This document shows positions 71 to 29,642 of a stretch of DNA of 31,055 nt, one piece after another. A model generated the notes under the pieces. That model ran no database searches, had not been told where the DNA came from, and saw only the letters and a program-made list of their open reading frames with translations. Numbering within the stretch: the stretch's first letter is position 1; every line of letters starts with the position of its first letter. Both the position numbers and the translations under genes were made by a program. This DNA comes from a virus, in IMG/VR virus record IMGVR_UViG_3300020455_000063, positions 1-31,055 of that record, one strand, 5' to 3'.

Positions 71-78
71 TATTTATC
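71..78 (-). promoter_or_regulatory. Predicted T4-type late promoter at the end of the coiled-coil gene
   Basis: GATAAATA on the minus strand, overlapping the stop codon of the coiled-coil gene (GGA TAA ATA) and ending 22 bases before the ATG at 48. It fits the spacing at gp8, gp13 and gp15. Confidence 0.55.
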
Positions 79-1792
79 CTAACGCAATTGCCAAACCTAA
101 TGTTGCTTTCTTACCCAATTCAGTAAGAACATTCGTAGATCCTATTGTAATAGATTCATGTGCGGTTAATATACCACAAGTTGCAATACCTACAAAAGTA
201 GAAACTCCAGTAACCTTTAAATTTCTAGCAGTTGCTTCATCATATACTATATCACCACTAACATTTAAATCGCCACTTAAAGTAAGATCAACACCAGTAC
301 ATCCAGCAGCCAATTCATCTGCAGCACCACCAATTGCTGTGCTTGCAATACCTACCCATTTTTTAGTAGATGCCTCATATATCAACATCGTTCCATTAGT
401 AGTTGCTGATCCTACAACAACATCATCAAGGTCATATATTTTTCCAGCACCACCTCCACCAATGGAGTATAATTGTTGCTCAACTCTATTAACAAACAAT
501 CTATAGTTTGCTGCTAAGTCCTTTAATGTAGCAAACTTTTGTCCAGTTGGAGTAAGAGGATCATCACCCTGTTTTTCTTCTGGGTCAGGCATTATTGGTC
601 GATCATTTACGATCTCCATATCTTCTTTTAATATTTGCTGCTTACCTTTTATTTCTTCAACAATTTTATACAATTCAGCAATACTTGCAGATGTTTCTTT
701 TTCTAATTTAGAAACATCTTTTTTCATATCCCTTCTAAGTTCATGGATATGATCATCATAGTATTTTACTTTAGGAAGATTTGCAATTTCTTCTTTTAAT
801 CCACCCAAGTAATTTTCAAAAACTTTATTAGCTTCGTAATTTTTATCTTGTGTTTCTGTTATTTGTTTTTGGATATTTTGATTTAATTTATTATATTGAC
901 TAAGAATATTTTTCTTTAATTTCCTATCATCATCTTTATAACCATGATGAATATCCCAAATTTTAATAGCAGTTTCTTTTAATTCTTCATAAATTTTATC
1001 CTTCGTTTCTTTAAGATTATTTTGTGCTTTTTCAAACTCAACTTTATTTTCAAAATCTTTTAAATCAAAGTTTTCAGCAATCTCAGAAACTTCTTGATTT
1101 ATTCTATCTCTAATACCCTTTATATTATCACCAACTTTAACAAAGTCATCATCAATCACACTAAAGGTTTTTCCAATCCATGAAAAATCAGGAACTTCAT
1201 TTACCTCATTTACCCACTTAGGGAACTGAGGAATAGAATCCCTAACTTGTTCTATTTTTTCATCTAAAGAAACTATATCATTATCATAATACTTAACTTC
1301 TGGTAATGATTCTTTTAGAGAAACTAACTTACCTTCAAGTTGTTGTAATTGCTCATCATAATATTTTACCTCTGGAAGGTTTGCAATATGATGTTTTACA
1401 TTTTCAATCTGTTCATTAATGTCTTCTACTTCTTCATCATAATATTTTACCTCTGGAACTGCAGAAATATCTTCTTTAACTTGTTCAACATGTGTAGATA
1501 ATTGCTCAAGTTCTTTATCATAATATTTTATCTCTGGAATGTCAGGAATACTTTCCCGAACATCATTTACCATCCGAACTAATTCAGACCATTCAGGTGC
1601 TTTTACAATATCGGTGACTTCTAAAAATGCATTACCGTTTGCATCTTCAATAGTAATACTATCTTCTACTTCTTCTTCTACAAATTCTTCTACGGATGGG
1701 AGTTCTACCGTTTCTTCTTCTTTTAAAAATTGTTCGACTGATGGTAAATCACTTTCAGTGAAATCATCTAGTGACGGTAACTTATCCGACAT
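74..1792 (-). CDS. Coiled-coil fibre/whisker-like virion protein (572 aa)
   Basis: I recognise the type (structural proteins of marine T4-like phages between the terminase genes) but not a named function. The acidic N-terminus carries three LPS(L/V)(D/E)x-F repeats: LPSLDDF, LPSVEQF and LPSVEEF. Residues about 85-345 are long coiled coil, with five copies of (I/V/L)P(E/K)(V/I)KYYD; the first three are 27 residues apart, the fourth follows after 24, and the fifth lies near residue 336. The C-terminal third turns beta-rich: a GGGGAGKIYDLDDVVVG segment with TMLIYEASTKKWVGIAST, like the LDDV...YD...W motif of phage fibre proteins, then SGDLNVSGDIVYDEATARNL. No membrane or signal segment is seen. 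A trimeric fibre or collar whisker analogous to T4 fibritin is the best guess. T4 wac lies elsewhere (before gene 13) and I see no direct fibritin motif. Confidence 0.78.
   Translation of the reverse strand: MSDKLPSLDDFTESDLPSVEQFLKEEETVELPSVEEFVEEEVEDSITIEDANGNAFLEVTDIVKAPEWSELVRMVNDVRESIPDIPEIKYYDKELEQLSTHVEQVKEDISAVPEVKYYDEEVEDINEQIENVKHHIANLPEVKYYDEQLQQLEGKLVSLKESLPEVKYYDNDIVSLDEKIEQVRDSIPQFPKWVNEVNEVPDFSWIGKTFSVIDDDFVKVGDNIKGIRDRINQEVSEIAENFDLKDFENKVEFEKAQNNLKETKDKIYEELKETAIKIWDIHHGYKDDDRKLKKNILSQYNKLNQNIQKQITETQDKNYEANKVFENYLGGLKEEIANLPKVKYYDDHIHELRRDMKKDVSKLEKETSASIAELYKIVEEIKGKQQILKEDMEIVNDRPIMPDPEEKQGDDPLTPTGQKFATLKDLAANYRLFVNRVEQQLYSIGGGGAGKIYDLDDVVVGSATTNGTMLIYEASTKKWVGIASTAIGGAADELAAGCTGVDLTLSGDLNVSGDIVYDEATARNLKVTGVSTFVGIATCGILTAHESITIGSTNVLTELGKKATLGLAIALG
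750..1540 (-). repeat. Five PEVKYYD repeats in the coiled-coil protein
   Basis: Copies lie at about 1517-1540 (IPEIKYYD), 1437-1460 (VPEVKYYD), 1355-1380 (LPEVKYYD), 1285-1310 (LPEVKYYD) and 755-783 (LPKVKYYD). Each is followed by an acidic heptad-like helix (KELEQL, EEVEDI, EQLQQL, NDIVSL, DHIHEL). The Pro starts a new helix and the repeat marks joints between coiled-coil segments. Confidence 0.85.
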
Positions 1793-15461: not shown

Positions 15462-18400
15462 TCAAGGAGTTTTATATTGATCATATTTAAGGGAAGCAGA
15501 TCTTCTTACCACTGGTGAAGTAGAAATTCCACCTGTTCCTCCTAAAGTATATGCATTATAAGTATTACTCTCAGATCTAGAGGTGAGGTTGATTTTACCC
15601 CAACTATATGATCCAAAATAATTGCCAGTTTGAATACCAGCACCACTGAAAGTAGGCCATTGACCACTCCAAGTATTGAAGTTAGTTACTTTCACAAACA
15701 CCCTATTAAGATGAGTTGTACCTATTCCTACACCCGTAGTTCCAACTCCAGTTGCAGTTTGAACTATTTCATAATTATTAACTTCATAAACGTTATTTAG
15801 GAATTGTGTTCCCACTCCAATAACAGCACCACCAGTATCTACAGAATTTATTGATGTAGTTGCACTACCAACTGTAGAATTATTAACTATAAAGAAATCA
15901 CCTGTAGATATTCCACTAATAGTAACTGCAGTACCAGTAATATTAGAATCTCTTAAATCTGATGTAAGAGGAATATGTAAATCAAATATTAATTGATAAT
16001 TTGTCGTTCCAGCTCCAACTGTAGTAGTACCAAATCCAACAATAATTCCAGAATCACCCTGATAGTAATCAACCTTATTTTCTTCTTCAGACCAAGCAGG
16101 AGGACTGATAAGAACCATTGGTGGATTTGATGATGTATATCCAGCACCAACACTTGTAAGTGCGATACCAGTAATAGTTCCAGCAGCACCAATTATTGGA
16201 GTACCATAGGCAAGAGTGGATGTTGTACCAACACCAACCTCATTACCACTTAATGATGTAGTAGCAAAACTAACTGTAGCAGTACTATAACCAACACCAC
16301 CAGTAGAAATAGCAACAGAAGAAATTGTTCCTAAACCAGATACAATTGCAGTGCCAGCAGCACCAATCTTATCTTCTTGAGAAATTAATTTAACTTTCTT
16401 CTGGAAAACAAAGTCATTAGCAGTTGGTGATACATTATTAACCTCATCATATGGATCAAAATATGGTCTTGCATTTTCAACATAAATGACAGTTGATCCT
16501 ATTCCAACAGATTTAATAATAGGTGAATAAGGATTAATAACAGGTTCATAGAGTTCTCTATCTTTACCTACACCTTTTTCATTAATAATCTTATCTTCAG
16601 TTTGTCTACACCAATTGACTGGTCTTTTCAAATTAGAATTGTTACTATTTCCTGGTCCATAATATGGAGGAGTAGAAACAACATCTGTAGAATCAACACT
16701 AATAGGAACCCTTGCAGTTTCTTGTAACCAAGTATCTTGAGTTTGCAAACGACCAACCGTTAAATCATCACCTTCTTTTACAGTTTCAATAACTTTTCTT
16801 TCAACAACGTCTTGAGATCCAGTTCCTTTATAGAAAACAATTTCAATTGTATCACCAATCTTAGGTGATTCAGTGAATGTAATCACACTACCACCAGGGA
16901 ATTTATATCCTTTACCAGGAACTTGAGGGATACTATTAACAAAGACTAATAAAATATCTTCAACAACAATCTTAGATCCTTTTTTAGCAACAATAGAAAC
17001 TGATTCACCATTGACGGTTAATGGGAATTCAGTTTTACTTCCATCAATAAATCTTTCAACATTATCGAGAACTTGTAATTCACCAACAGACCATCCAGTA
17101 AATTCATCATTAAAAACTTTTTCAACATCAACTATAAACTCTGTGAAAGTTTTATTTGGATCAGTTGGAATACCTGTAGTGCCACCAATAGGAACTGTTA
17201 ATTTTTCAAGATTACCATAACCACTACCAGTATTTTGAATAGTAAATTGAACTACACTAGAACCTTGACCAACCACGACATCAATAGTAGCACCATCTCC
17301 AATTCCTGAAGATGTGTCACTGTAGGTTAAACCAATACCACTATATGATAATGGATCATCAATAACTACTTCACTATATCCTTCAACTACTCCACCTCTA
17401 GCATATTCATGATTTCTAGTTGATATTCCAGTTTGAGTTTCAAATGTCTTACTATTAATAACATGTAAGATTTCACTTCCATTTGCTGCAACATCTTCTT
17501 TACTTGCTGAATTGTTATTCAACCGAGGAGCAATAATAGCAGACTGAACTGATCCTAATCCAACATAGAAAGTGGGAACAGTAGAAACACCAATATTAAC
17601 TTCAAATGTAGTAGTTCCTACACCAACAGCAGTAACTGTAGTTCCTGTGTAATAAGGATCTGGTTTTCTAGGATATCTATGAACAGATGCATAATTATCT
17701 CTTGAGCATCTAAAGGATAAAGATTCAGTTTTTATACCAATACTTTGTCCTGTGCGTAGACTATGACCTGCACCAATACTTACTGTTAATATTCCAGAAT
17801 TAGCACTATATGAAGCAGTAGAGATGCTGTAAAGAGCAGTCTTAGATGTTCCTACATTAAGAGTAATAGTATCATCTGTTTTTGAATCAATGTTAATAGA
17901 AGTGCTAAATCCTGGATCAGTATATCTTGGATAAGGATGGATTGTTGCATAATCATCAAATTCACATCTAAATCTTAAACTATCTTGCTTTAATCTTACA
18001 CTAGTATCTGCAGATAATCCATGACTAGCAATAGAAAGAACTAAAGATCCTGTATCGGGATTATAAGTAGCATCACTAACGTTATGAGTTACAGTTGCAG
18101 AAGTTCCAACATAGACAGTAATCGTGTTTGCTGTATATCCTGTAATTGCAGTAGTAATTCCTGCAATAGGATCTGTTGAACGAGGATAAGGATGATTTGA
18201 AGTATGACTATCCATCGAACAAGTAAATACAATACCACCTGTAGCAATTCCAATAGTATTACTATCAGAAAGACCATGAGAAGGAATAGTAAGAACTAAG
18301 TTTCCAGTTCCTGCATCATATGTTGCATTAGTAGCAGTTGTTGTTCCAACACCTGTTACACTTACACTTCCAACACCAGAACTTACAAATGTATGATTAT

Positions 18401-21400
18401 AATCACCACCACTAATAACGGCAGCAGGGTCTGATCCAATAAATCTATGAGCATATGAACCACCAGCAACTATAGCACCAGAAGTAGCAGATACGAATTG
18501 GTGAGTAAAGTTATCACTATTAGCAGCATATCCCACATCAATTGCAATGTCTCCATCATTATGTGTAAGTCCATTAGCAACTGCACTAACAAAACTATGA
18601 ATTCCAGTATAAGTTGAAGGTGCTACAGGAAGAACATTAACTCTGAATGTATTTGTAGTTACATTAGAAACTACTATCCACTGACTAGCAATCGTATCTG
18701 ATTTTCTAGGATATGGATGTGAAGTAGCATAATTATCCTTAGCACAAGTAAATATTAAAGAGTTGGGTTCAAACTTAACTTTATCACCATTAGAGATGCC
18801 ATGACTAGCAGAAGTGACTGTCATGATCCCAGTCGTAGGACTATAAACTGCACCTGTTACAGTTTTTTTAGCACCATCTTTAGTAATCTTAACTGCAGTA
18901 TGATATGCAGAGTCTTGTCCTCTTGGATAGTAATGAGTAGATGCTCCACCATCTAGACCACATGTAAATGCTAGTCCAGTAAAGATAACAACACTCTTCT
19001 GACCACTAGTTGATAATCCATGACCAACAGCAGTCGTAACTGTCATAATACCAGAGATATTATCATAGACTGCAGTATGAATACCAACTCTAGGTGAGTA
19101 ATCACAAGTAAATGCAATACCAGAAAGTCTTACTTCATCACCAACCGATAATCCATGATCAGTCTGTGTTGTTATTGTAGAAATACCAGTAACTGAACTA
19201 TATCCAACATTTGCAACTTTTCTAGGTGAATAGAAAATGTGATCAGCATTAGTAACAGCAATTCCTGTAATATGTCCAGTTGTAATTTGTGCTGTTCCTA
19301 TTCCGATTACATTTGTACCTTTACGACTTAGAGTTTGTATACCAACATTAACAGTTTGAATACCTGCTCTATAACCAGAACCACTATTACCAATACTAAT
19401 AGACTTAATAGTACCACCAGCCGCAACGGTAACGGTTCCACCTGCTGCCACTAAAGGTTGATATCCAAATCCTTCACTAGAACCAACAGAAATTAATACT
19501 CCACCTTTAGGTAAATTTCCCACATTTACATCAGACGTAGAACTTCCCGTACCAGTAAATGAAATTGTTGTAACACCAACAGTAGGATCTTCTGTTATTG
19601 TAAATTCATTAGTTGCACCTGAAGTTTGATAGACATCATTAATAAGAACAATTGCAGTGTCAGTAACAATTCCTGAAATATTAGAACCACCAGACTGTAA
19701 AGTAAAGTCAGATTTTTGACCATTAAATTGTGAGGATAAACTATCAAAAATATAGTTTCTCCAATATGGTTCATTTGCAGTATCTGGAACACCAGAACGC
19801 ATAAATGTTCTTCCTTCAAAACTAGATCCCGTTGCAATTCCTGTCCAATCCCTAGAATCTGGTGGATTTGTAGAGGTGCTTAAAGGAACATTTCCATAAG
19901 GTGCTTCTACAAAGTTTATCGTATTATCAACAATATTATAATTACCATCTACCTTAGTTACTACAGTTCCTGTTCCATATCCTGCTAAAGTAGTTCCAGC
20001 CCAAGATCTTCTAACTCTAATAATATTATCATTTCCAGCAATACCAATAGAGTCAAGTCTAATAATCTCATTACCTATTTTAATCAAATCACCACCATAG
20101 AATGACGTAATTCCTGCAAACTCCAATTCATCATCAGTAGTAAATACTTGATCTGTTAAATGTGTAGTAACAGAAGTGGAGACAATAGGAGATTGGATAA
20201 TATTATCTAAAGAAATTATAGCTTTTTTATTCTGGTTAATAGCATTAAAACAGTGAGAGGTTCCAATACCCACACTTGTAAGATCAACCACCTCTGGGAC
20301 GGTCTGAAGTGCCTTAGCAGCACTTTCTGCAATCTTAATGGTTTCATCATCAATCTTAACTGCAAATACTTTACTTGGTAATAAAGTAGTTGTACCAACA
20401 CCAACAAATCCATCTGTGCTGGCAACACCAATTGCCATCGTATAACCACTACCAGGATTAGTGTAAATAAGTTCTTCACCAGTAACAAAGAAATGATTTG
20501 GTAAATTAATGCTATTAGTATCAGTATTAAGAATACTAGTGCTACTACCATCAAATGGTTTTCTAAAAATTGGATCACCTTTATGTGACAATCCAAATGC
20601 TCTTAATACAGCACTTTCAGTTCCCGTATACTCACCAAAACCACTTTCTATGGTTCCGTTATTAAAATCAATAGTATCCTTAGTATCATCTTGTATTCTT
20701 ACAGCACTGAAGTATACATTGACTTGAGCATTGATACTTGCTACTGGGGTAAAGAGTAATGAAACAGTTCCAGCAGAAGATACCTTTGATCCAAAAGTTC
20801 CAAGTCCACTTGCCGAAACATTAGAACCAACATTAGCAAATTCTACATCAAATGTTTCTGTTGAAGTTTCTGAAATATAATCAGTAACTGTAGCAAATTC
20901 AAACATTTCATAAGCTTGATTTGTAGCATCAGTAACTTGAACAACACCATAACCTGCTTCATATTCAGATGGCCATTGACCAACAGTAGTAATTCCAGGA
21001 GAAGAAGAAGAGTCAATTGATGTTGTTCTAGATTCTAATCTAGCATGTTTAAGATCAACTGTTCCAATTCCACTATATGCAGAATCTGCCATACCAACAA
21101 GAATGGTATTAATAACTCCAGTAGTTCCTATACCAACTTCTGAATTAGCAATAAAATCAACCTTCAATTCTGTTCCATCAATATAACCACGATAAGTTCC
21201 TAAACCACCAATCGATTCTGCACTATTAATAGTCGTCAATCTACCATATTCCATCAAATCTACATCAGTTCCATTATGAATTATATTAAGTTGATTATAC
21301 TCATGTTCTATACCACTAACATCTGGATTAATATTAATAATTACTTTGGCAGATCTATAAGTACTTGCAATACCTACAATCGTTGTAGTTCCAGTACCAG

Positions 21401-24400
21401 TGCCTATTGTTACACTCTCAGAATCAATTAATGTTCTACCAATCACAGTGCTTCCAGTGCTTAATAGATTATCATCAAGATTATAAGAAATACTTGCAAC
21501 CCAATAATCATTAACAGAAAAGTTTTCTGGATAGAAATTTAAATTACCTTCACTTCCAGCAATAGCAAAATCAAAATCTCCTTGATCATAAACTGACTCA
21601 ACTCTACCATATTGGTTAATATATCCAAAAGTGCTATCATGAATAATATCAACAATCATTAACTGTCGTTGTCCACCATATCTCTTATCTCTAACATAAG
21701 TAATATATTTTACTGCTCTTCTATCTGCTAATGTCCATCTAGCAACAGTACTAAATCTAGTTGCTCTTGGATTACTATTAAATGTTCCACTAAAATTATC
21801 TATAGAAACCACTCTATTTCCAACTGATTCAGAATAGTCTTTTAATATTCTACTTGAGAAAGTTATCTCATTGGAAACAGAATCATCTAAATTAATCTGC
21901 AATGCATTCTCAGATACTAAATCAAAATCATATACACAATTCAAATCACCCTTACCATAGAGATCATTTACTACAGAAACATCAGATAACTCTGTAGATA
22001 AACCAACTTTAACAGAAGCAGTTGATTCTAATTGATAATCAGAAAATTTCTTAAATCCTAATGTATGGTTTAAAGCTGAAACAGGATCATTCCATGTTTC
22101 AATATCAACTCTGGAACTTAAAGAGTATGAAAGATTTTGATAATAATCACTATCCTGCACTCTTTGCAAATTGCTATTAAGATATCCAGAATCAGTTTCC
22201 CATCCCTTTTCTACTCTAGAAGTTGCATTTAATTTAATATAGGAATCAAAAGTTTTTATAGATGAAGCAAGACCTTGCGTTGAAGAACTTAATCCTTTTA
22301 AAACATCATTAATTATAAATCCATCAGTATTGCTAACTCTTAAAATACCAGTATTTGGATTCCAATTTTGAACAGTACCTCTAGTTCTACTAATAGATCC
22401 TTCAACTACTTCACTATTAGCAAAATCATTGGGTTTTAATTTAATATCAAAAGTCGGCATAAATTTCTCAGGAACAATTCTTCCAGAAGAATTGATAAAA
22501 TCATATGTTCCTGCAGAAAGACCAGGAGCTTCCCCTACAAAATAATCTGAAAGATTATATGTAACAGTTCCAATACCACCATAATTTTGATCAACTGCTG
22601 TTATAGTAAAAAGTTTGTAATCATAATTTTCGGAGTTGTATCCTTTTGCAGATGTACCAATCCCAACACCCACACCTTCTACAAATACTTTATCACCAAC
22701 TGCAATTGGGAAAGTATCAGCAGTACTGAATCCAACAGATAATTGTATCGTTACATCATAATTTACTGTATTAAATCCAACGGTAGCAATTCCTACACCA
22801 TTACTATTTCTATCAGTAATAATTCTAGCAGGAGCATTGCTAATACCTTTAGTATTTTTAAGAATTTCTACATTTGGATTTCCTAGTGTATACTTTAGAT
22901 CAGCATCTAAAATAGGTTTATCTGTTTTACCATCAATAAGAATTAACTCTGGAGCAGATATATATCCTCTTCCGAAAGATGTTATTCCAATAGATTCAAT
23001 AGACATCAAAGCATCTATTTTAATAATCTGTGGTAAAGCTGTATCTGGTTTTATTGTAGTATCAGATGCAAAATCATATCCAATATCCTTAACCTTTATT
23101 TTTTTAATTTTTCCTACAGAAGTACTTCTTGCTTCAATAATTGCACCACTACCAACTTCAGTAGTAATTGTGGAAATACCAGGAAGATCATAATAATTTC
23201 TACCTTTACTTGTTATTTCAAATTCTGAAATAGCACCATATGCAGTTGGACTATCAGTTTCGTAAGATATAATTGAAGTAGTTCCATAAGAAAGTCTTTC
23301 TGGAGATTCTCTTAATGTATATGTAAATTCATTCGTAGATCCAACGGTAATTCTTTGCTTACCATTATAATCACTGTTAACTATTTGTACTTCACTACCA
23401 TTCAAAACTTCAGAATCTACATTGATCTCCTTTTTAACATTTGGTAAAGTGCTCTCAACGATTGGATCTAAAGTATAGTAAATGTTTTCTGGAACATCAT
23501 CAGTAACTGATAAAGTTACTTTAGCATCATCGGATACACCTGCAGTTCCACTTCTTGTAACATTAAAAACAGTAGACTGTGGAGAAGTTTCCCATTGTTT
23601 TGTTAAATTCTTATCACTATAGAAATTTAATAAAAATGCAGGATAGTTTGTAGATTGTGCAACATATCCTAAAGATTTATCAGAAAGATCAAATTCAACA
23701 AAAGAATTTTTATATGCTTTTAATGGAGGATTGATTAAATTTATTGTTCCTGAAGAAGTGCTAGTAATTCCTATTACATCTGGTTTTGATTCCTTTGCAT
23801 CATAATCAGTATTAGTTAATTTAAACTTATCACTATCAATTTTTACAATATAATAAATTCCATTATTACTTAAACCACCTGCAGGAGTTGATGCAGTATG
23901 AATAATTTTATCTCCAGTCGTATATCCATGATCAGTTATTGTAAATGCATTAGTAGTTGTATTAACACCAGAAGCAGTAAATGATTTTGGATTAACTATA
24001 AGTCTTCTATTGTAATCATTATACTTAACAGTCACTGTTGTAGTAAGACCAGATACTACATTCATATAAACATTTTCATAGTTTAATAAACCATGACTTT
24101 GACCAGTCGAAACAGTAGCACTGGTTCTACGAATTTCTCCAGTAATTACATTATAATTAGTTTTAAAACTATGATAAACACCAGTACCCAATCCAGAGAA
24201 GAATACTGTTGTACTACCTCTCTGTGTGCTTGCAATGCCTACAAAAGTACCTGTACTACCTAAACCAACTTTAACGGTGGATATACCTATCAAGTCTTCT
24301 GTAATAACTCCAGCATAAAGTGTCTCACCATTTGTTAATGTAGTTATTCCAGTATATGCAGCATCTACTCCATCCCATCTAATATTAAGACCCTCTCCAG

Positions 24401-27400
24401 CATTAGGAGAATATGTCAATTTATCACCTGTTTTTAATCCATGATCTGGAAGATAAATTGCTTTTGTTTGAATAAACAATTGAGTTAATCCAATTCCAGG
24501 ATTACTAAATGCAATTGTAGTTCCAATACCAACTCCCGATCTTGTACCTAATCCTACAGAATCAACAGGATTAAAATAAATTTGATTGTTTATTCTATAT
24601 TCATAATCAGAACTAAACCCAGAATTAATAGTAAGTCTTCTTGGTTTTTCAAGAATTTCTGAAGTTACTGTATGAGAAACTCCCGTAACTCCATTGATAG
24701 ATCTAAGAACTCTAATTCTTGAAAGAAGGGGTTCTAGATTTAATACTTTTATCGTTTCTGTTCCAATTCCAAGAAGATCATTAGATTGAAGTTTTGATAG
24801 ATCTCCACGAACATCAATATGAGTTACTATACCCGTAGCACCATCAGTTCCAATAGCAACAGCAGTTGTTCCTAATCCAATTACACTAAGTCTAGTAGAA
24901 GTAATTCCAGCATTATAAATTCCTCCAATCTGTGAAGAAGTTGTAGATAACCCAGTAACTGTAATAATATCACGATTAACCCATTGATGAGGTTCTGTAG
25001 AAACAATACTATAAATTCCTTTCTGACTTGAAGGATATATTTCAACATTGGTTATACTACTAGTAGCAGCACTTACACTACTTACTGGTTTACCAAGAAG
25101 TAGTGAAACTGAAGCGGCTGCATTATTCCCTTTAGTATTTGCATTATCAAATACTACCTTATCACCAACTTGGTAATTCTTACCACCAGTTTCAATTCCA
25201 ATACTCTCAACAAAACCTGGTTGAGTTCCAATAACATCTATAGTTTGAGATAACTTATCGGGTAATGGCATGTATGGATAATACACCTTATCATCATATA
25301 TCAAATTATAAGGTGTTGTATTTCTACACCACTTACTATTATTCAAATCATAACTATCTTGATTTGAAGAAACTAAGAAGTTAAAATCATTAGGAGTAGA
25401 ATAATAATTTTTACCAATCAAATAAGGGAATACTGGTAACTTATAAGTATTAAATTGTCCACCTTGCTCAGAACCAGAATCATCAATTGTTGCAAAATAT
25501 GCATAAGTTCCACTTGGGAATTGTGGAGTTACACAAAATCTTCCATTATTCTCATCCAAAATAGTTTCATCACTTACCGATTTGTAAGTATAATCATCAG
25601 TAAAGAATCCTGGAGGAAAAATACTTAAAGGTGGTCTATTTTCCTTAATTGTAGATTCTTCAATATATCCAGATTTCATCTGGGTTACTGTTCCACCTGC
25701 TTTCTTAATATAACCATAAGGACCATAAATTGGATTTCCATCATAAGCCCATCCAATAATTGGAGAATGGTTGTCTGATGGAACTTCTTGCCCATTAACC
25801 TTTTTTAAATCTGGTTCACCAAATAAAGATTTTCCTTCTTGATTCGTTGCATAAATTGTTTGTCTTAATTTTCTTGGTGCATATAAATGATTATATTGCA
25901 ATTCAATATTACCATCTTTTATAAATCCATCATCATCTGAAATTTGATTAGTTTGATAATATTTCTCAAATAAATTAACATTCCATTTTTGGAAATTAGA
26001 TCGAATCTTATTACCAGTTCCTGCAGAAATGACATCAATGGATGTATTGTCTTTAGAATATCCAGATCCTTTATGAATTATATTAACACTATCTAAAACA
26101 TAATTAACAGTTGTTCCTATACCAATTGACGAAGCATTTCCATTAAGATCAACTATTTTAAGAATAGGTGTTATAACCGCACCTACCCCATCACCATTTA
26201 ATTGTAAATCTGGTGGTGAATTATAATTCTCACCTTTATTCTCTACAACAACTTCACTAATTTTACCATTAGGATCAACAATAGGTGTTAACTGTGCATT
26301 CGATCCAGATAATAAAGTTATTTCAGGTTCTCTAATAAAGTTAATAATTTCAGATGAACCATATCCAACTCCATTATTAGATAAATGGATAGATGTTACT
26401 TCACCTCTGAATATAGGTTGAACCTTAAGTTCAAAAGTTTCAGATCCTACTGAATTAATACCAACATCCCCATCAATAGTTACAGTAATATCCTGATAGT
26501 TAAAATTATGAGTTCCTACTCCAATAGAAGTAAGAGGTCTATATTGCTTAGTCTTATGATAGAAATCACTAGCAGTGGTTCCTACTCCAACACTCGATAG
26601 ATAGAAACTATCATCATTTTTCTTGGTAACATAAAAATCAGTAGAAGTGGTAAGTCCTGCTATTGGTGTTCCATTACAAGTATAAGTAACAATTTCTCCA
26701 GATTCATAATCATGATTTTTAATATCAATACAATTTAAAGAAGTGTTTATACCTGCAGGAACAGCAGTTCTTTTTTTATTTTGATATCCTGCTCCACCAG
26801 AAAGTATATTGATAGATTCAACTATGTTTTTAGTTTCAACAGATTTTATAAATTGTTTTCCAATTCCTTTAGATGTTAATGCAATTGTATTAATACCTGC
26901 TAGAACACCTGCTTCATCTTTATGAAGTCTTATTGTAGTTCCAGCAGTTCCTACGAGAGCAGCATAATAAGTTGCACTTGTAGTAAGTCCACCAATAACT
27001 TGTTGCCCATCAGTAACATATATTACTTTCTCTGCATTTTTAAATTTATGGTAAGTGGTGAATCCAATTGTAGAAGGTAAAGTATCACCATCAAGACCTA
27101 TTCTAGAAGATCCTGCTTCAAAAGAAACAGAATGATCTATAGATTGCATATTTACAGAAACACGAGCACCTGATCCATTACCACCTTCAATTTTCAATGT
27201 AGGTGGTTCTTTATAATCAAAACCTGCATCAATAATTCTCATCTCCTTTAAAGATCCAGATATCGCAGCATATCCAGTAGCTGCAATACCAACAGAATCT
27301 TTAATATGTAAAAAAGGAGGATTGATTACATCATATTCTTTTCCACCAGCAAGAACATCTATACTTTCAAGTTTTCCATAATGAACCTGATCAAAAGATT

Positions 27401-29642
27401 TGTAATTTAAAATCTCTACTCCATTTACCAATATACCAGTATGTCCAGGAGTTGTTTCATATACAGTCCCACTATTATCAGGTGGACAAACTTCTCTTAA
27501 TAATTTTTGTGATTTTAAACTTTTATTATTAAATTTAAATGGTGAAATTTTATTATCAGTTACAATACCAGTTCTTGTCTCATCAGTATCAACATTAATA
27601 AATTTTTCAGTATAAAGATCAGAACCACTCTTAGCAAATTTAAGTGTTGTTGAATTTACTCTTTTAACAAAGTAAAGACCCTCATCCATTAAAGATGACT
27701 TAACAACAAAATTGTCTATGGAAGTGCCACTTGTGGGATCTACATAAGAATCATTAATAATTTGTGGTGTATAATAAATCGAATCACCAGTATAGAATCC
27801 ATGATCAAAAATAGGAACACCAGAAGGAGTAGTGGTTGAATTGGTTATAATTTCATACTCATCTCCACTAAAACTTCCACTAAATATAATTTTTCCATCA
27901 TTAACACCCAATGATTGAGATCCATAAGTTGGAATAGATGGTGATGCTATAAGTAACTTATCTGTTCCTTTCTCCTTATATACATTCTGCACATTTGTAG
28001 AAAAGTCAGAAGCTTCAGGAAAATTAATGGCATTTGTTTTTAAAATTTGCCTTTCAACTGTATAGCTTAAAGTAGTATTAACCTCACCTTGACCCTTTAT
28101 AATAAATGCTCTACGAGAAGTTAATTGAGTTATATCTGATACAGGTAAATTACGTCCATCACTACCAACCAAAATAGCAACAGATTTATCTCCTATTTTA
28201 AAATCATGATCGGTAGTTAATATAATCTCATAAGTCCAATCAGATGTATCTTTGAGAGTAATACTCTCAACTTGATATACTGGAGAAACATTATAGAACC
28301 ATTCTTGTACTCTAAATCCAGTATCTCCAATTCCTAAAGTTTTAATTTTTATAGTATCATCTTTTTCAAAAAGACAATTAGTATTTTCATAATCAAACGT
28401 ATCAATTACTGAGGTAATTCTTACTTCAATAGTTTCATCCGAATCAATAACAGATTTTCCATATGCAAAAGTATTAATACCAATAGTTTCACCACTTAAA
28501 ATAGTCTTTCCAATTCCACTAAGTCCAAAAAATTGAGTTAGACTTTTTGATGTATATGAACTTACCCCTATAGTATTATCAATATATTTAAAATACAATT
28601 CACCAGCAGTACCAAACCCAACTGTAGAATCAACATCAATATATGTAAGACCTGCACCAACCTCTCCAATCAATCTTGTTCTAGGTGGTGTAATAAAAGT
28701 TCCGTATGTAGATCCCTCAACTCTAGAATCTCTATTATAACCAGCATCAATACTTAATTTATAAAATGTAGTTCCTGCACTAACATTAATAGGTTCTACA
28801 TGAGTTATTGGTGCATATGCTTTTTCAATACTCTGATCTTTATATGCATCTTGAAATAATGTAGATAATTCAAGATTAATTGGATCACCAGAAATTGGTT
28901 CTACAACAAAATCTTTTGTTATTTTATAATTTGCATTAGATGGTGTAAAAAGAAATTCAGATGGTCTTATAATTTTTACATTTTCATTATATAAAGCTTT
29001 AAATAAAATTTCAAAACCCCTATCAGTTCCTTTACTTAGATAAAAGTCTTTTGATTGTTTTATGAAAATATTTTGATCTAAATCTGAAGATAATTTTCTT
29101 GCTTCAAATCCTGGAGTAAGTTGATGTTTAGTCTTAACTAAAAATTCTTTAAGGAAGAGAGAACTTAAATTTTGTATAGAAACACCCTTATCATGCTCTT
29201 CTGCAGTAGTAGATTCAAATACTAATTCTTCAGGATTAATATCATTTTGATATGAACTAACACCAACAAATCCCCTAACACATCCAGTAAAAGCAAATGT
29301 AGTTATTCCAGTATAAGTAATGATTTCATTATTAATTTTCAACAATCCATAAGAATTTGGGAAACCCAAAGTTCCAGTGGGATTCTTTTTCATATCAACT
29401 TCAATTATGTCATTACTGAAACCTACAGAAGCACCCAATCCAACGTATTCAGTAAGACCAACCTGTTCACTAACTTTTGTATATTGATCAATATTTTGAA
29501 CCAAATCAATTGGTCCACCTTGATATTCTTGTCCTTGATAATACGACTTTAAAAATTCAGCAACTAATGGATAGTCGGATCTAACATATCCAGGAAGCTG
29601 ATTTTGAACAATGTTATTGAGCTGAATTCTTTTTGTAGACAT
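15462..29642 (-). CDS. gp7: Giant baseplate wedge protein gp7 with YHYH domain and tandem beta modules (4726 aa)
   Basis: Recognised as the T4 gp7 (wedge initiator) homologue by its place between gp6 and gp8, and by its N-terminus, which starts MSTKRIQLNNIVQNQLPGYV and runs through a conserved block to about residue 260. T4 gp7 has 1032 residues; this frame has 4726 without a break. A YHYH domain lies near residues 1280-1430, with the HSPIIGWAYDGNPIYGPYGY core starting near residue 1292. Repeated G-x-GY modules (such as NPGSGYT, NTGSGYG) and GIGTT/VGVGTT strings are scattered throughout. Residues about 3475-4025 hold six tandem modules with F-(T/R)-C and H-x-YPR motifs, interrupted at about 3680-3755 by a His-Phe repeat. 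The conserved end includes YYGPGNSNNSNLKRPVNWCR and VVRRSASLKYDQY. I see no membrane segment or signal peptide. No Shine-Dalgarno is evident before the ATG (29642), which follows gp6 by 17 bp. A fusion of gp7 with fibre-like sequence is possible, but I see no boundary that shows it. Confidence 0.85.
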   Translation of the reverse strand: MSTKRIQLNNIVQNQLPGYVRSDYPLVAEFLKSYYQGQEYQGGPIDLVQNIDQYTKVSEQVGLTEYVGLGASVGFSNDIIEVDMKKNPTGTLGFPNSYGLLKINNEIITYTGITTFAFTGCVRGFVGVSSYQNDINPEELVFESTTAEEHDKGVSIQNLSSLFLKEFLVKTKHQLTPGFEARKLSSDLDQNIFIKQSKDFYLSKGTDRGFEILFKALYNENVKIIRPSEFLFTPSNANYKITKDFVVEPISGDPINLELSTLFQDAYKDQSIEKAYAPITHVEPINVSAGTTFYKLSIDAGYNRDSRVEGSTYGTFITPPRTRLIGEVGAGLTYIDVDSTVGFGTAGELYFKYIDNTIGVSSYTSKSLTQFFGLSGIGKTILSGETIGINTFAYGKSVIDSDETIEVRITSVIDTFDYENTNCLFEKDDTIKIKTLGIGDTGFRVQEWFYNVSPVYQVESITLKDTSDWTYEIILTTDHDFKIGDKSVAILVGSDGRNLPVSDITQLTSRRAFIIKGQGEVNTTLSYTVERQILKTNAINFPEASDFSTNVQNVYKEKGTDKLLIASPSIPTYGSQSLGVNDGKIIFSGSFSGDEYEIITNSTTTPSGVPIFDHGFYTGDSIYYTPQIINDSYVDPTSGTSIDNFVVKSSLMDEGLYFVKRVNSTTLKFAKSGSDLYTEKFINVDTDETRTGIVTDNKISPFKFNNKSLKSQKLLREVCPPDNSGTVYETTPGHTGILVNGVEILNYKSFDQVHYGKLESIDVLAGGKEYDVINPPFLHIKDSVGIAATGYAAISGSLKEMRIIDAGFDYKEPPTLKIEGGNGSGARVSVNMQSIDHSVSFEAGSSRIGLDGDTLPSTIGFTTYHKFKNAEKVIYVTDGQQVIGGLTTSATYYAALVGTAGTTIRLHKDEAGVLAGINTIALTSKGIGKQFIKSVETKNIVESINILSGGAGYQNKKRTAVPAGINTSLNCIDIKNHDYESGEIVTYTCNGTPIAGLTTSTDFYVTKKNDDSFYLSSVGVGTTASDFYHKTKQYRPLTSIGVGTHNFNYQDITVTIDGDVGINSVGSETFELKVQPIFRGEVTSIHLSNNGVGYGSSEIINFIREPEITLLSGSNAQLTPIVDPNGKISEVVVENKGENYNSPPDLQLNGDGVGAVITPILKIVDLNGNASSIGIGTTVNYVLDSVNIIHKGSGYSKDNTSIDVISAGTGNKIRSNFQKWNVNLFEKYYQTNQISDDDGFIKDGNIELQYNHLYAPRKLRQTIYATNQEGKSLFGEPDLKKVNGQEVPSDNHSPIIGWAYDGNPIYGPYGYIKKAGGTVTQMKSGYIEESTIKENRPPLSIFPPGFFTDDYTYKSVSDETILDENNGRFCVTPQFPSGTYAYFATIDDSGSEQGGQFNTYKLPVFPYLIGKNYYSTPNDFNFLVSSNQDSYDLNNSKWCRNTTPYNLIYDDKVYYPYMPLPDKLSQTIDVIGTQPGFVESIGIETGGKNYQVGDKVVFDNANTKGNNAAASVSLLLGKPVSSVSAATSSITNVEIYPSSQKGIYSIVSTEPHQWVNRDIITVTGLSTTSSQIGGIYNAGITSTRLSVIGLGTTAVAIGTDGATGIVTHIDVRGDLSKLQSNDLLGIGTETIKVLNLEPLLSRIRVLRSINGVTGVSHTVTSEILEKPRRLTINSGFSSDYEYRINNQIYFNPVDSVGLGTRSGVGIGTTIAFSNPGIGLTQLFIQTKAIYLPDHGLKTGDKLTYSPNAGEGLNIRWDGVDAAYTGITTLTNGETLYAGVITEDLIGISTVKVGLGSTGTFVGIASTQRGSTTVFFSGLGTGVYHSFKTNYNVITGEIRRTSATVSTGQSHGLLNYENVYMNVVSGLTTTVTVKYNDYNRRLIVNPKSFTASGVNTTTNAFTITDHGYTTGDKIIHTASTPAGGLSNNGIYYIVKIDSDKFKLTNTDYDAKESKPDVIGITSTSSGTINLINPPLKAYKNSFVEFDLSDKSLGYVAQSTNYPAFLLNFYSDKNLTKQWETSPQSTVFNVTRSGTAGVSDDAKVTLSVTDDVPENIYYTLDPIVESTLPNVKKEINVDSEVLNGSEVQIVNSDYNGKQRITVGSTNEFTYTLRESPERLSYGTTSIISYETDSPTAYGAISEFEITSKGRNYYDLPGISTITTEVGSGAIIEARSTSVGKIKKIKVKDIGYDFASDTTIKPDTALPQIIKIDALMSIESIGITSFGRGYISAPELILIDGKTDKPILDADLKYTLGNPNVEILKNTKGISNAPARIITDRNSNGVGIATVGFNTVNYDVTIQLSVGFSTADTFPIAVGDKVFVEGVGVGIGTSAKGYNSENYDYKLFTITAVDQNYGGIGTVTYNLSDYFVGEAPGLSAGTYDFINSSGRIVPEKFMPTFDIKLKPNDFANSEVVEGSISRTRGTVQNWNPNTGILRVSNTDGFIINDVLKGLSSSTQGLASSIKTFDSYIKLNATSRVEKGWETDSGYLNSNLQRVQDSDYYQNLSYSLSSRVDIETWNDPVSALNHTLGFKKFSDYQLESTASVKVGLSTELSDVSVVNDLYGKGDLNCVYDFDLVSENALQINLDDSVSNEITFSSRILKDYSESVGNRVVSIDNFSGTFNSNPRATRFSTVARWTLADRRAVKYITYVRDKRYGGQRQLMIVDIIHDSTFGYINQYGRVESVYDQGDFDFAIAGSEGNLNFYPENFSVNDYWVASISYNLDDNLLSTGSTVIGRTLIDSESVTIGTGTGTTTIVGIASTYRSAKVIININPDVSGIEHEYNQLNIIHNGTDVDLMEYGRLTTINSAESIGGLGTYRGYIDGTELKVDFIANSEVGIGTTGVINTILVGMADSAYSGIGTVDLKHARLESRTTSIDSSSSPGITTVGQWPSEYEAGYGVVQVTDATNQAYEMFEFATVTDYISETSTETFDVEFANVGSNVSASGLGTFGSKVSSAGTVSLLFTPVASINAQVNVYFSAVRIQDDTKDTIDFNNGTIESGFGEYTGTESAVLRAFGLSHKGDPIFRKPFDGSSTSILNTDTNSINLPNHFFVTGEELIYTNPGSGYTMAIGVASTDGFVGVGTTTLLPSKVFAVKIDDETIKIAESAAKALQTVPEVVDLTSVGIGTSHCFNAINQNKKAIISLDNIIQSPIVSTSVTTHLTDQVFTTDDELEFAGITSFYGGDLIKIGNEIIRLDSIGIAGNDNIIRVRRSWAGTTLAGYGTGTVVTKVDGNYNIVDNTINFVEAPYGNVPLSTSTNPPDSRDWTGIATGSSFEGRTFMRSGVPDTANEPYWRNYIFDSLSSQFNGQKSDFTLQSGGSNISGIVTDTAIVLINDVYQTSGATNEFTITEDPTVGVTTISFTGTGSSTSDVNVGNLPKGGVLISVGSSEGFGYQPLVAAGGTVTVAAGGTIKSISIGNSGSGYRAGIQTVNVGIQTLSRKGTNVIGIGTAQITTGHITGIAVTNADHIFYSPRKVANVGYSSVTGISTITTQTDHGLSVGDEVRLSGIAFTCDYSPRVGIHTAVYDNISGIMTVTTAVGHGLSTSGQKSVVIFTGLAFTCGLDGGASTHYYPRGQDSAYHTAVKITKDGAKKTVTGAVYSPTTGIMTVTSASHGISNGDKVKFEPNSLIFTCAKDNYATSHPYPRKSDTIASQWIVVSNVTTNTFRVNVLPVAPSTYTGIHSFVSAVANGLTHNDGDIAIDVGYAANSDNFTHQFVSATSGAIVAGGSYAHRFIGSDPAAVISGGDYNHTFVSSGVGSVSVTGVGTTTATNATYDAGTGNLVLTIPSHGLSDSNTIGIATGGIVFTCSMDSHTSNHPYPRSTDPIAGITTAITGYTANTITVYVGTSATVTHNVSDATYNPDTGSLVLSIASHGLSADTSVRLKQDSLRFRCEFDDYATIHPYPRYTDPGFSTSINIDSKTDDTITLNVGTSKTALYSISTASYSANSGILTVSIGAGHSLRTGQSIGIKTESLSFRCSRDNYASVHRYPRKPDPYYTGTTVTAVGVGTTTFEVNIGVSTVPTFYVGLGSVQSAIIAPRLNNNSASKEDVAANGSEILHVINSKTFETQTGISTRNHEYARGGVVEGYSEVVIDDPLSYSGIGLTYSDTSSGIGDGATIDVVVGQGSSVVQFTIQNTGSGYGNLEKLTVPIGGTTGIPTDPNKTFTEFIVDVEKVFNDEFTGWSVGELQVLDNVERFIDGSKTEFPLTVNGESVSIVAKKGSKIVVEDILLVFVNSIPQVPGKGYKFPGGSVITFTESPKIGDTIEIVFYKGTGSQDVVERKVIETVKEGDDLTVGRLQTQDTWLQETARVPISVDSTDVVSTPPYYGPGNSNNSNLKRPVNWCRQTEDKIINEKGVGKDRELYEPVINPYSPIIKSVGIGSTVIYVENARPYFDPYDEVNNVSPTANDFVFQKKVKLISQEDKIGAAGTAIVSGLGTISSVAISTGGVGYSTATVSFATTSLSGNEVGVGTTSTLAYGTPIIGAAGTITGIALTSVGAGYTSSNPPMVLISPPAWSEEENKVDYYQGDSGIIVGFGTTTVGAGTTNYQLIFDLHIPLTSDLRDSNITGTAVTISGISTGDFFIVNNSTVGSATTSINSVDTGGAVIGVGTQFLNNVYEVNNYEIVQTATGVGTTGVGIGTTHLNRVFVKVTNFNTWSGQWPTFSGAGIQTGNYFGSYSWGKINLTSRSESNTYNAYTLGGTGGISTSPVVRRSASLKYDQYKTP
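17570..19220 (-). repeat. Six degenerate tandem modules (C-x8-H-x-YPR) within gp7
   Basis: Residues about 3475-4025 of gp7 contain six units. Each begins Y-(S/D/N)-x-x-(T/S)-G-(I/N/S)-(M/L)-T/V, followed by (S/G)HGLS or similar and a core such as LIFTCAKDNYATSHPYPR, IVFTCSMDSHTSNHPYPR, LRFRCEFDDYATIHPYPR or LSFRCSRDNYASVHRYPR. Five units keep Cys and His nine positions apart. The first unit, at the right-hand end near 19100-19220, keeps FTC but is shortened before the His. Units are about 75-90 residues long. At the DNA level the signature is a recurrent ggatawggatg-like string on the plus strand (for example near 17670, 17930, 18185 and 18710). Confidence 0.8.
18380..18603 (-). repeat. His-Phe repeat (H-x-F-V/I-S/G) between tandem modules of gp7
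   Basis: Between the third and fourth C-x8-H modules, gp7 contains four copies of H-x-F-(V/I)-(S/G)-(A/S): IHSFVSA, THQFVSA, AHRFIGS and NHTFVSS. The last two are each preceded by GG-(S/D)-Y. The spacing suggests short beta strands or a beta-helix rung with aligned histidines. Function is unknown. Confidence 0.65.

Follow-up and report, generated by a model that had tools for sequence, protein, structure and literature searches.

The window (i.e., the whole 31,055-nucleotide stretch of viral DNA analyzed here, from record IMGVR_UViG_3300020455_000063) encodes a gp7-like baseplate protein that appears to hold, at one fixed point, an optional array of β-barrel beads of about 85 aa each. Taken as a whole, our reading is that the beads are exchangeable, that the conserved Cys/His hairpin within each is a structural motif, and that the array is probably a host-facing spacer or adhesin; we give this reading a probability of roughly 55%.

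The source of the window is a relative of T4-like marine cyanophages, and its PHROG matches and gene order identify the region as baseplate and neck. The gp13 to gp15 DNA is 69 to 73% identical to that of cultured cyanophages and 93 to 94% identical to fragments of the single-cell marine virus AG-345-E15. The gene order gp6-gp7-gp8-VrlC-gp13-gp14-gp15 matches that of S-SM2, with a 2538-aa protein in the VrlC position, and gp16 was also identified from PHROGs and gene order. The gp7-like gene (positions 15462 to 29642, minus strand; 4726 aa) lies between gp6 (phrog_219, upstream) and gp8 (phrog_438, downstream), which is the position of T4 gp7 and is the same in S-SM2, Bellamy, and SynMITS9220M01. 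PHROG 2885 (baseplate wedge subunit) covers aa 2 to 3815 of the protein (E = 0). Synteny and PHROG 2885 thus bear out the original prediction that the modules reside in a gp7-like baseplate protein. Compared directly, the protein and T4 gp7 are only weakly similar: T4 gp7 is the top PDB match by sequence for the N-terminal 500 aa, but with an E value of 0.032 over 35 residues, and the Pfam Baseplate_wedge profile (PF23786) scored 14.5 bits against a cut-off of 27. Because T4 gp7 has been reported to be absent from the compared phage groups (pelagimyophages and T4-like relatives) and apparently replaced by VrlC (PMC7029224), the name, which derives from synteny, the PHROG, and the annotation of relatives, should be held loosely. 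The same protein contains a YHYH domain (PF14240; E = 3e-21; positions 25482 to 25787, minus strand; aa 1286 to 1387). At positions 74 to 1792 (minus strand), the window encodes a 572-aa tail-fiber-like protein with short, partial PHROG matches; at this place, the S-SM2 genome carries its own tail fiber gene.

Five exact copies of C-x8-H-x-YPR occur in the 4726-aa protein, with Cys at aa 3561, 3633, 3808, 3893, and 3979, and the pattern was seen in 0 of 2000 shuffles of this protein; an additional Cys upstream (aa 3513) sits in an FTC core without the His and YPR. The count of six modules, five of them with the full motif, therefore stands as five exact copies and one shortened copy. Cys is as rare as had been claimed (16 residues in 4726 aa, 6 of which are within modules). 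All six modules are read from the minus strand. Module 1 (19089 to 19217; aa 3476 to 3518), detected by an HMM match, is a hairpin-less GIAFTCDY variant that is conserved in relatives. It is followed by module 2 (18870 to 19082; aa 3521 to 3591; C3561, H3570, YPR) and module 3 (18630 to 18863; aa 3594 to 3671; C3633, H3642, YPR). Module 4 (18099 to 18338; aa 3769 to 3848; C3808, H3817, YPRSTDP) has tblastn matches in cyanophages, module 5 (17844 to 18083; aa 3854 to 3933; C3893, H3902, YPRYTDP) is the copy modelled with AlphaFold2, and module 6 (17583 to 17825; aa 3940 to 4020; C3979, H3988, YPRKPDP) closes the series. The description of the modules as tandem applies well to modules 4, 5, and 6, which are spaced by 85 to 86 aa, but the series is not even, since modules 3 and 4 are kept apart by about 100 aa of a different HxFVSA..GG repeat (18339 to 18629, minus strand; aa 3672 to 3768), recognized in the sequence as HQFVSA, HRFIGS, and HTFVSS. 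In relatives, a similar FVSA stretch replaces the first hairpin in some modules. Module 1 is not simply a decayed copy, because the form SGIAFTC(D/N)Y recurs across many relatives. A recent tandem duplication in the window was also rejected, as its modules share 38 to 44% identity with one another versus 52 to 70% with modules of other phages.

The six modules are confined to a variable cassette (17370 to 19247, minus strand; aa 3466 to 4091) that is absent in four of the closest cultured relatives. The conserved flanks on its left (19368 to 20642, minus strand; aa 3001 to 3425) and right (16143 to 17369, minus strand; aa 4092 to 4500) share 46 to 60% and 42 to 62% identity, respectively, with gp7 proteins of close relatives that carry 0 to 10 modules. 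The Bellamy protein aligns with aa 1 to 3465 of the window protein through its aa 1 to 3438 (56%) and with aa 4092 to 4723 through its aa 3451 to 4065 (59%), and it has 12 aa where the window protein has 626. No module is present in gp7 of S-SM2, Bellamy, P-TIM68, or SynMITS9220M01; the copy numbers found at this fixed site are 0, 2, 4, 6, 7, 9, 10, and up to 13. Relatives with both flanks and modules hold 1 to 10 or 13 copies, with every module between the flanks. Since relatives carry 0 copies between conserved flanks, the array is optional for gp7. The best match of a module lies in its own protein in only 14 of 527 cases, which points to renewal of the array by exchange, or to an old and diverged array, and not to recent duplication. 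The variation from 0 to 13 copies between conserved flanks and the closer kinship of modules to those of other phages than to their neighbors together argue for an exchangeable accessory.

Beyond this site, the module is widespread in viral metagenomes, where its codon pattern was found in at least 120 IMG/VR stretches. A tblastn search located it in 264 phage records, all of them named as cyanophages, Synechococcus or Prochlorococcus phages, or marine viruses. Matches per whole isolate genome ranged from 0 to 20 (S-SM2, 0; S-RIM8, 1; P-HM2, 10; Sf-FS3, 12; P-SSM4, 14; P-SSM2, 17; P-RSM6, 20), and the module is present in proteins annotated as short tail fiber, structural protein, and tail protein. 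In a scan with the DNA pattern, the bacterial and archaeal genome contigs with the module were nearly all from marine metagenome-assembled genomes or single cells, and these matches are probably phage sequence. A 188-kb contig (NZ_RMVE01000006.1) in the assembly of the flavobacterium Nonlabens xiamenensis carries cyanophage modules; the assembly also includes a photosystem reaction-centre gene, on the contig numbered C10, and the module contig is a probable contamination from a cyanophage or cyanobacterium. In the single-cell Prochlorococcus AG-418-C09, a 189-kb contig (QCLS01000003.1) has modules at three places, which suggests phage DNA from an infected cell. The module has no match in Pfam or NCBIfam, and the PHROGs that contain it are unnamed or generic, in agreement with the earlier view of an unnamed domain. 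No published description of the module was found, which is weak evidence of absence because subscription journals lay mostly outside the literature search.

Residue conservation was assessed chiefly in isolate genomes, which are a fairer sample than contigs because C, D, H, YPR, and DP were preset in the pattern used to scan the contigs. In the isolate modules, Cys was present in 54/54, Tyr, Pro, and Arg each in 52/53, the Asp at +16 in 51/53, and the Asp at +3 in 44/52. The His position held His in 37/54 and Lys in 13/54; the pair proposed as invariant is thus often Cys/Lys in relatives, and the two residues were not conserved together in isolates as a metal-binding motif. Among the modules of viral contigs, Lys replaces His in about 17% while C, D, YPR, and D are mostly kept, and in those with an ungapped motif, Asp and YPR remain where His is exchanged for Lys. 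The shortened GIAFTC(D/N)Y variant likewise retains Cys without His or YPR. In another variant, GIAFTC...GITTTIFPDPQQSYTV, Cys is retained and FPD takes the place of HxYPR; it occurs at six loci, in each about 145 aa into its own open frame. Exactly one Cys is present in 465 of 527 modules, and Cys makes up 1.4% of residues within modules versus 0.4% outside in these Cys-poor proteins. Because both the His-to-Lys exchange and the GIAFTC(D/N)Y variant leave Cys in place, Cys goes with its strand and not with His.

An AlphaFold2 model of module 5, made with an alignment of 108 sequences, is a small β-barrel of seven strands (pLDDT, 90.1; pTM, 0.77). A three-module model has the same strands in all three units, with lower scores (pLDDT, 77.9; pTM, 0.50) at which the relative orientation of the modules is not trusted. 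In the single-module model, strands 44 to 47 (LRFR) and 56 to 59 (IHPY) border a short turn that starts at Cys48, and strand limits matched end to end would pair Leu44 with Tyr59, Phe46 with His57, and Cys48 with Thr55. Mean-field direct coupling analysis (DCA) of 612 modules (effective number, 529) gave couplings between columns 37 and 50 (8.9 SD), 39 and 48 (5.8 SD), and 35 and 52 (2.1 SD). The resulting register, with pairs 40-47 (Cys-Thr/Ser), 38-49 (Phe-His), and 36-51 (Leu-Tyr), agrees with the model strands, although some of these sequences also went into the model, so that the two registers are only partly independent. The second strongest coupling (10.1 SD) links Arg53 and Asp56. The His column couples with columns 47 and 51 on the same strand face and with 42 and 43 in the turn, and the Asp at +3 shows covariation with sites on the His-bearing strand. 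Cys and His should therefore share one hairpin face as diagonal neighbors; as for the question raised earlier of whether the two face each other, it is Phe, not Cys, that should lie directly opposite His.

From the covariation and the model strands, the hairpin between barrel strands may be written as (L)x(F)xC, an xxD turn, (T/S)x(H/K)xY, and PRxxDP. One strand would point its Leu, Phe, and Cys to the same side as the Thr/Ser, His/Lys, and Tyr of its partner, and the Arg-Asp pair follows the hairpin; side-chain geometry is predicted from this register. Because the paired strand residues face one way and the Arg-Asp pair comes next, we infer that the motif serves chiefly to lock the hairpin structurally, with His and Lys interchangeable and Cys as a putative buried, nearly irreplaceable packing residue. 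Against this, the near-total conservation of Cys exceeds what is usual for a plain packing residue. The beads would form an elongated arm, and the variability of the array and its protein context make a host-facing spacer or adhesive arm, and not the wedge core, its most likely role.

A metal site, in which Cys, His, and a nearby Asp or His would bind a metal such as Zn or Fe in every module, agrees with the expected placement of Cys and His on one hairpin face, with the covariation of the Asp at +3, and with the presence of both residues in most modules. It is nevertheless highly improbable: the exchange of His for Lys leaves the rest of the motif standing, which rules out an obligate His ligand; the GIAFTCDY and FPD variants hold Cys without the His/YPR set; and there is one Cys per module as a rule. 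An obligate pairing of Cys and His, whether around a metal or as a direct cross-link, as in the original prediction, accordingly finds no support, since His varies while Cys, Asp, and YPR mostly stay and the hairpin-less variant has Cys alone. The ligand-binding surface of that prediction is a candidate reading, and its placement of the modules along a baseplate arm is conjectural. A covalent or redox role for Cys (i.e., disulfides that join modules or chains, or a cross-link from Cys to Lys or Tyr that arises in oxic seawater once the cell has lysed, giving a rigid arm) would suit the unbroken conservation of Cys in otherwise Cys-poor proteins and the alternation of His and Lys with a nearly invariant Tyr close by. 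Still, such a role is unlikely: the single Cys of most modules excludes a disulfide within the module, Cys is kept in single-module proteins as well (S-RIM8), and the covariation names no partner, as Cys hardly varies. Less likely again is the fuller version in which Cys forms a covalent posttranslational link (joining it, for example, to the alternating Lys, to a Tyr that hardly varies, or to another chain) and the bead array is self-stabilized in a new way, with a copy number tuned at the one gp7 site to suit the host surface.

Two narrower functional readings are possible, each on a tentative footing. The hairpin surface might bind a sugar of the host surface: endosialidase barrels, which are implicated in polymer binding, are among the nearest folds, the fold occurs in a cyanophage protein annotated as endosialidase, carbohydrate-binding Cthe_2159 matches were obtained (weak and below the cut-off), and the copy number of the array varies. 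The predicted register, however, turns variable residues outward, and the conserved residues look structural. Alternatively, the array might be a pure length spacer without a ligand, its copy number setting the reach of the C-terminal part of gp7. Conserved flanks, free copy number, and interleaved unrelated HxFVSA repeats fit such a spacer, which alone accounts for the array variability equally well; conservation of one face is stronger than a spacer would seem to require, which fold stability might explain.

The structural proteins of marine cyanophages are very large and mostly unexplained, and one recurrent building block of these proteins is now delimited, together with its probable fold and a map of its residues that can be falsified. 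A single baseplate-protein site shows its gain, loss, and multiplication, so that copy number can be tested against host range and adsorption, and the Cys-His pair is kept from being filed as a metal site.

The module is a probable hairpin-bearing relative of the FCCH and endosialidase barrels, as judged from the model. Its leading neighbors in VIA-align 2 were E1 FCCH domains, endosialidase barrels, and tail-tube domains (Z, 5.4 to 6.3; 65 to 68 of 90 residues), where a Z of about 6 is modest and values below 8 may reflect a common arrangement; the roughly 20 unaligned residues fit a hairpin insertion. Foldseek returned nothing below an E value of 0.001 from the PDB; among viral models, the module itself came up in baseplate, tail, and fiber proteins of cyanophages (TM up to 0.93), with an S-PRM1 endosialidase ranking lower. 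An iota-carbonic anhydrase match of the module profile to PDB sequences (E = 0.0023) was summed from three weak stretches, each with an i-Evalue of at least 12, and was dismissed as chance.

Compared with known systems, the module resembles the small β-barrel FCCH domain of E1 ubiquitin-activating enzymes (PF16190; Uba6/Uba1; Z up to 6.3, rmsd 2.5, 67 aligned) and shares its HGxxxGDxV half, to which the sequence match is restricted, ending before the Cys hairpin. That match stays below the cut-off (best member, 21.3 versus 29.5 bits; none for the window module), and the module has no ubiquitin context. Hairpin-less FCCH-like repeats elsewhere in the gp7-like protein (e.g., near aa 1905) align over the same half (21 columns). 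The β-barrel of phage endosialidases (PF12195; EndoNF, K1F, and phi92) is probably alike in fold (Z, 5.9 to 6.0; 68 residues; for EndoNF, Z 6.0, rmsd 2.7) and also belongs to phage host-contact proteins. Its profile matches 6 of 108 relatives (best E, 2e-4) and not the window module; identity is 12 to 13%, the Cys/YPR hairpin is apparently extra, and the window protein has no sialidase. Siphophage tail-tube domains (FCWL1, 9jlf; T1, 9l0f) share a barrel of about 70 residues (Z, 6.0 to 6.3; 22 to 25% identity) but are too short for the hairpin insertion and form another part of the virion. PHROGs 5342, 701, 1276, and 18802, matched by 101 to 105 of 108 members, include the module, yet they are whole-protein clusters, none of which defines the module or motif. 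T4 gp7, the baseplate wedge initiator, corresponds to the window protein in synteny and in PHROG 2885 and matches it weakly at the N terminus; it has 1032 aa, whereas the window protein has 4726 aa with additional YHYH, barrel, and cassette regions.
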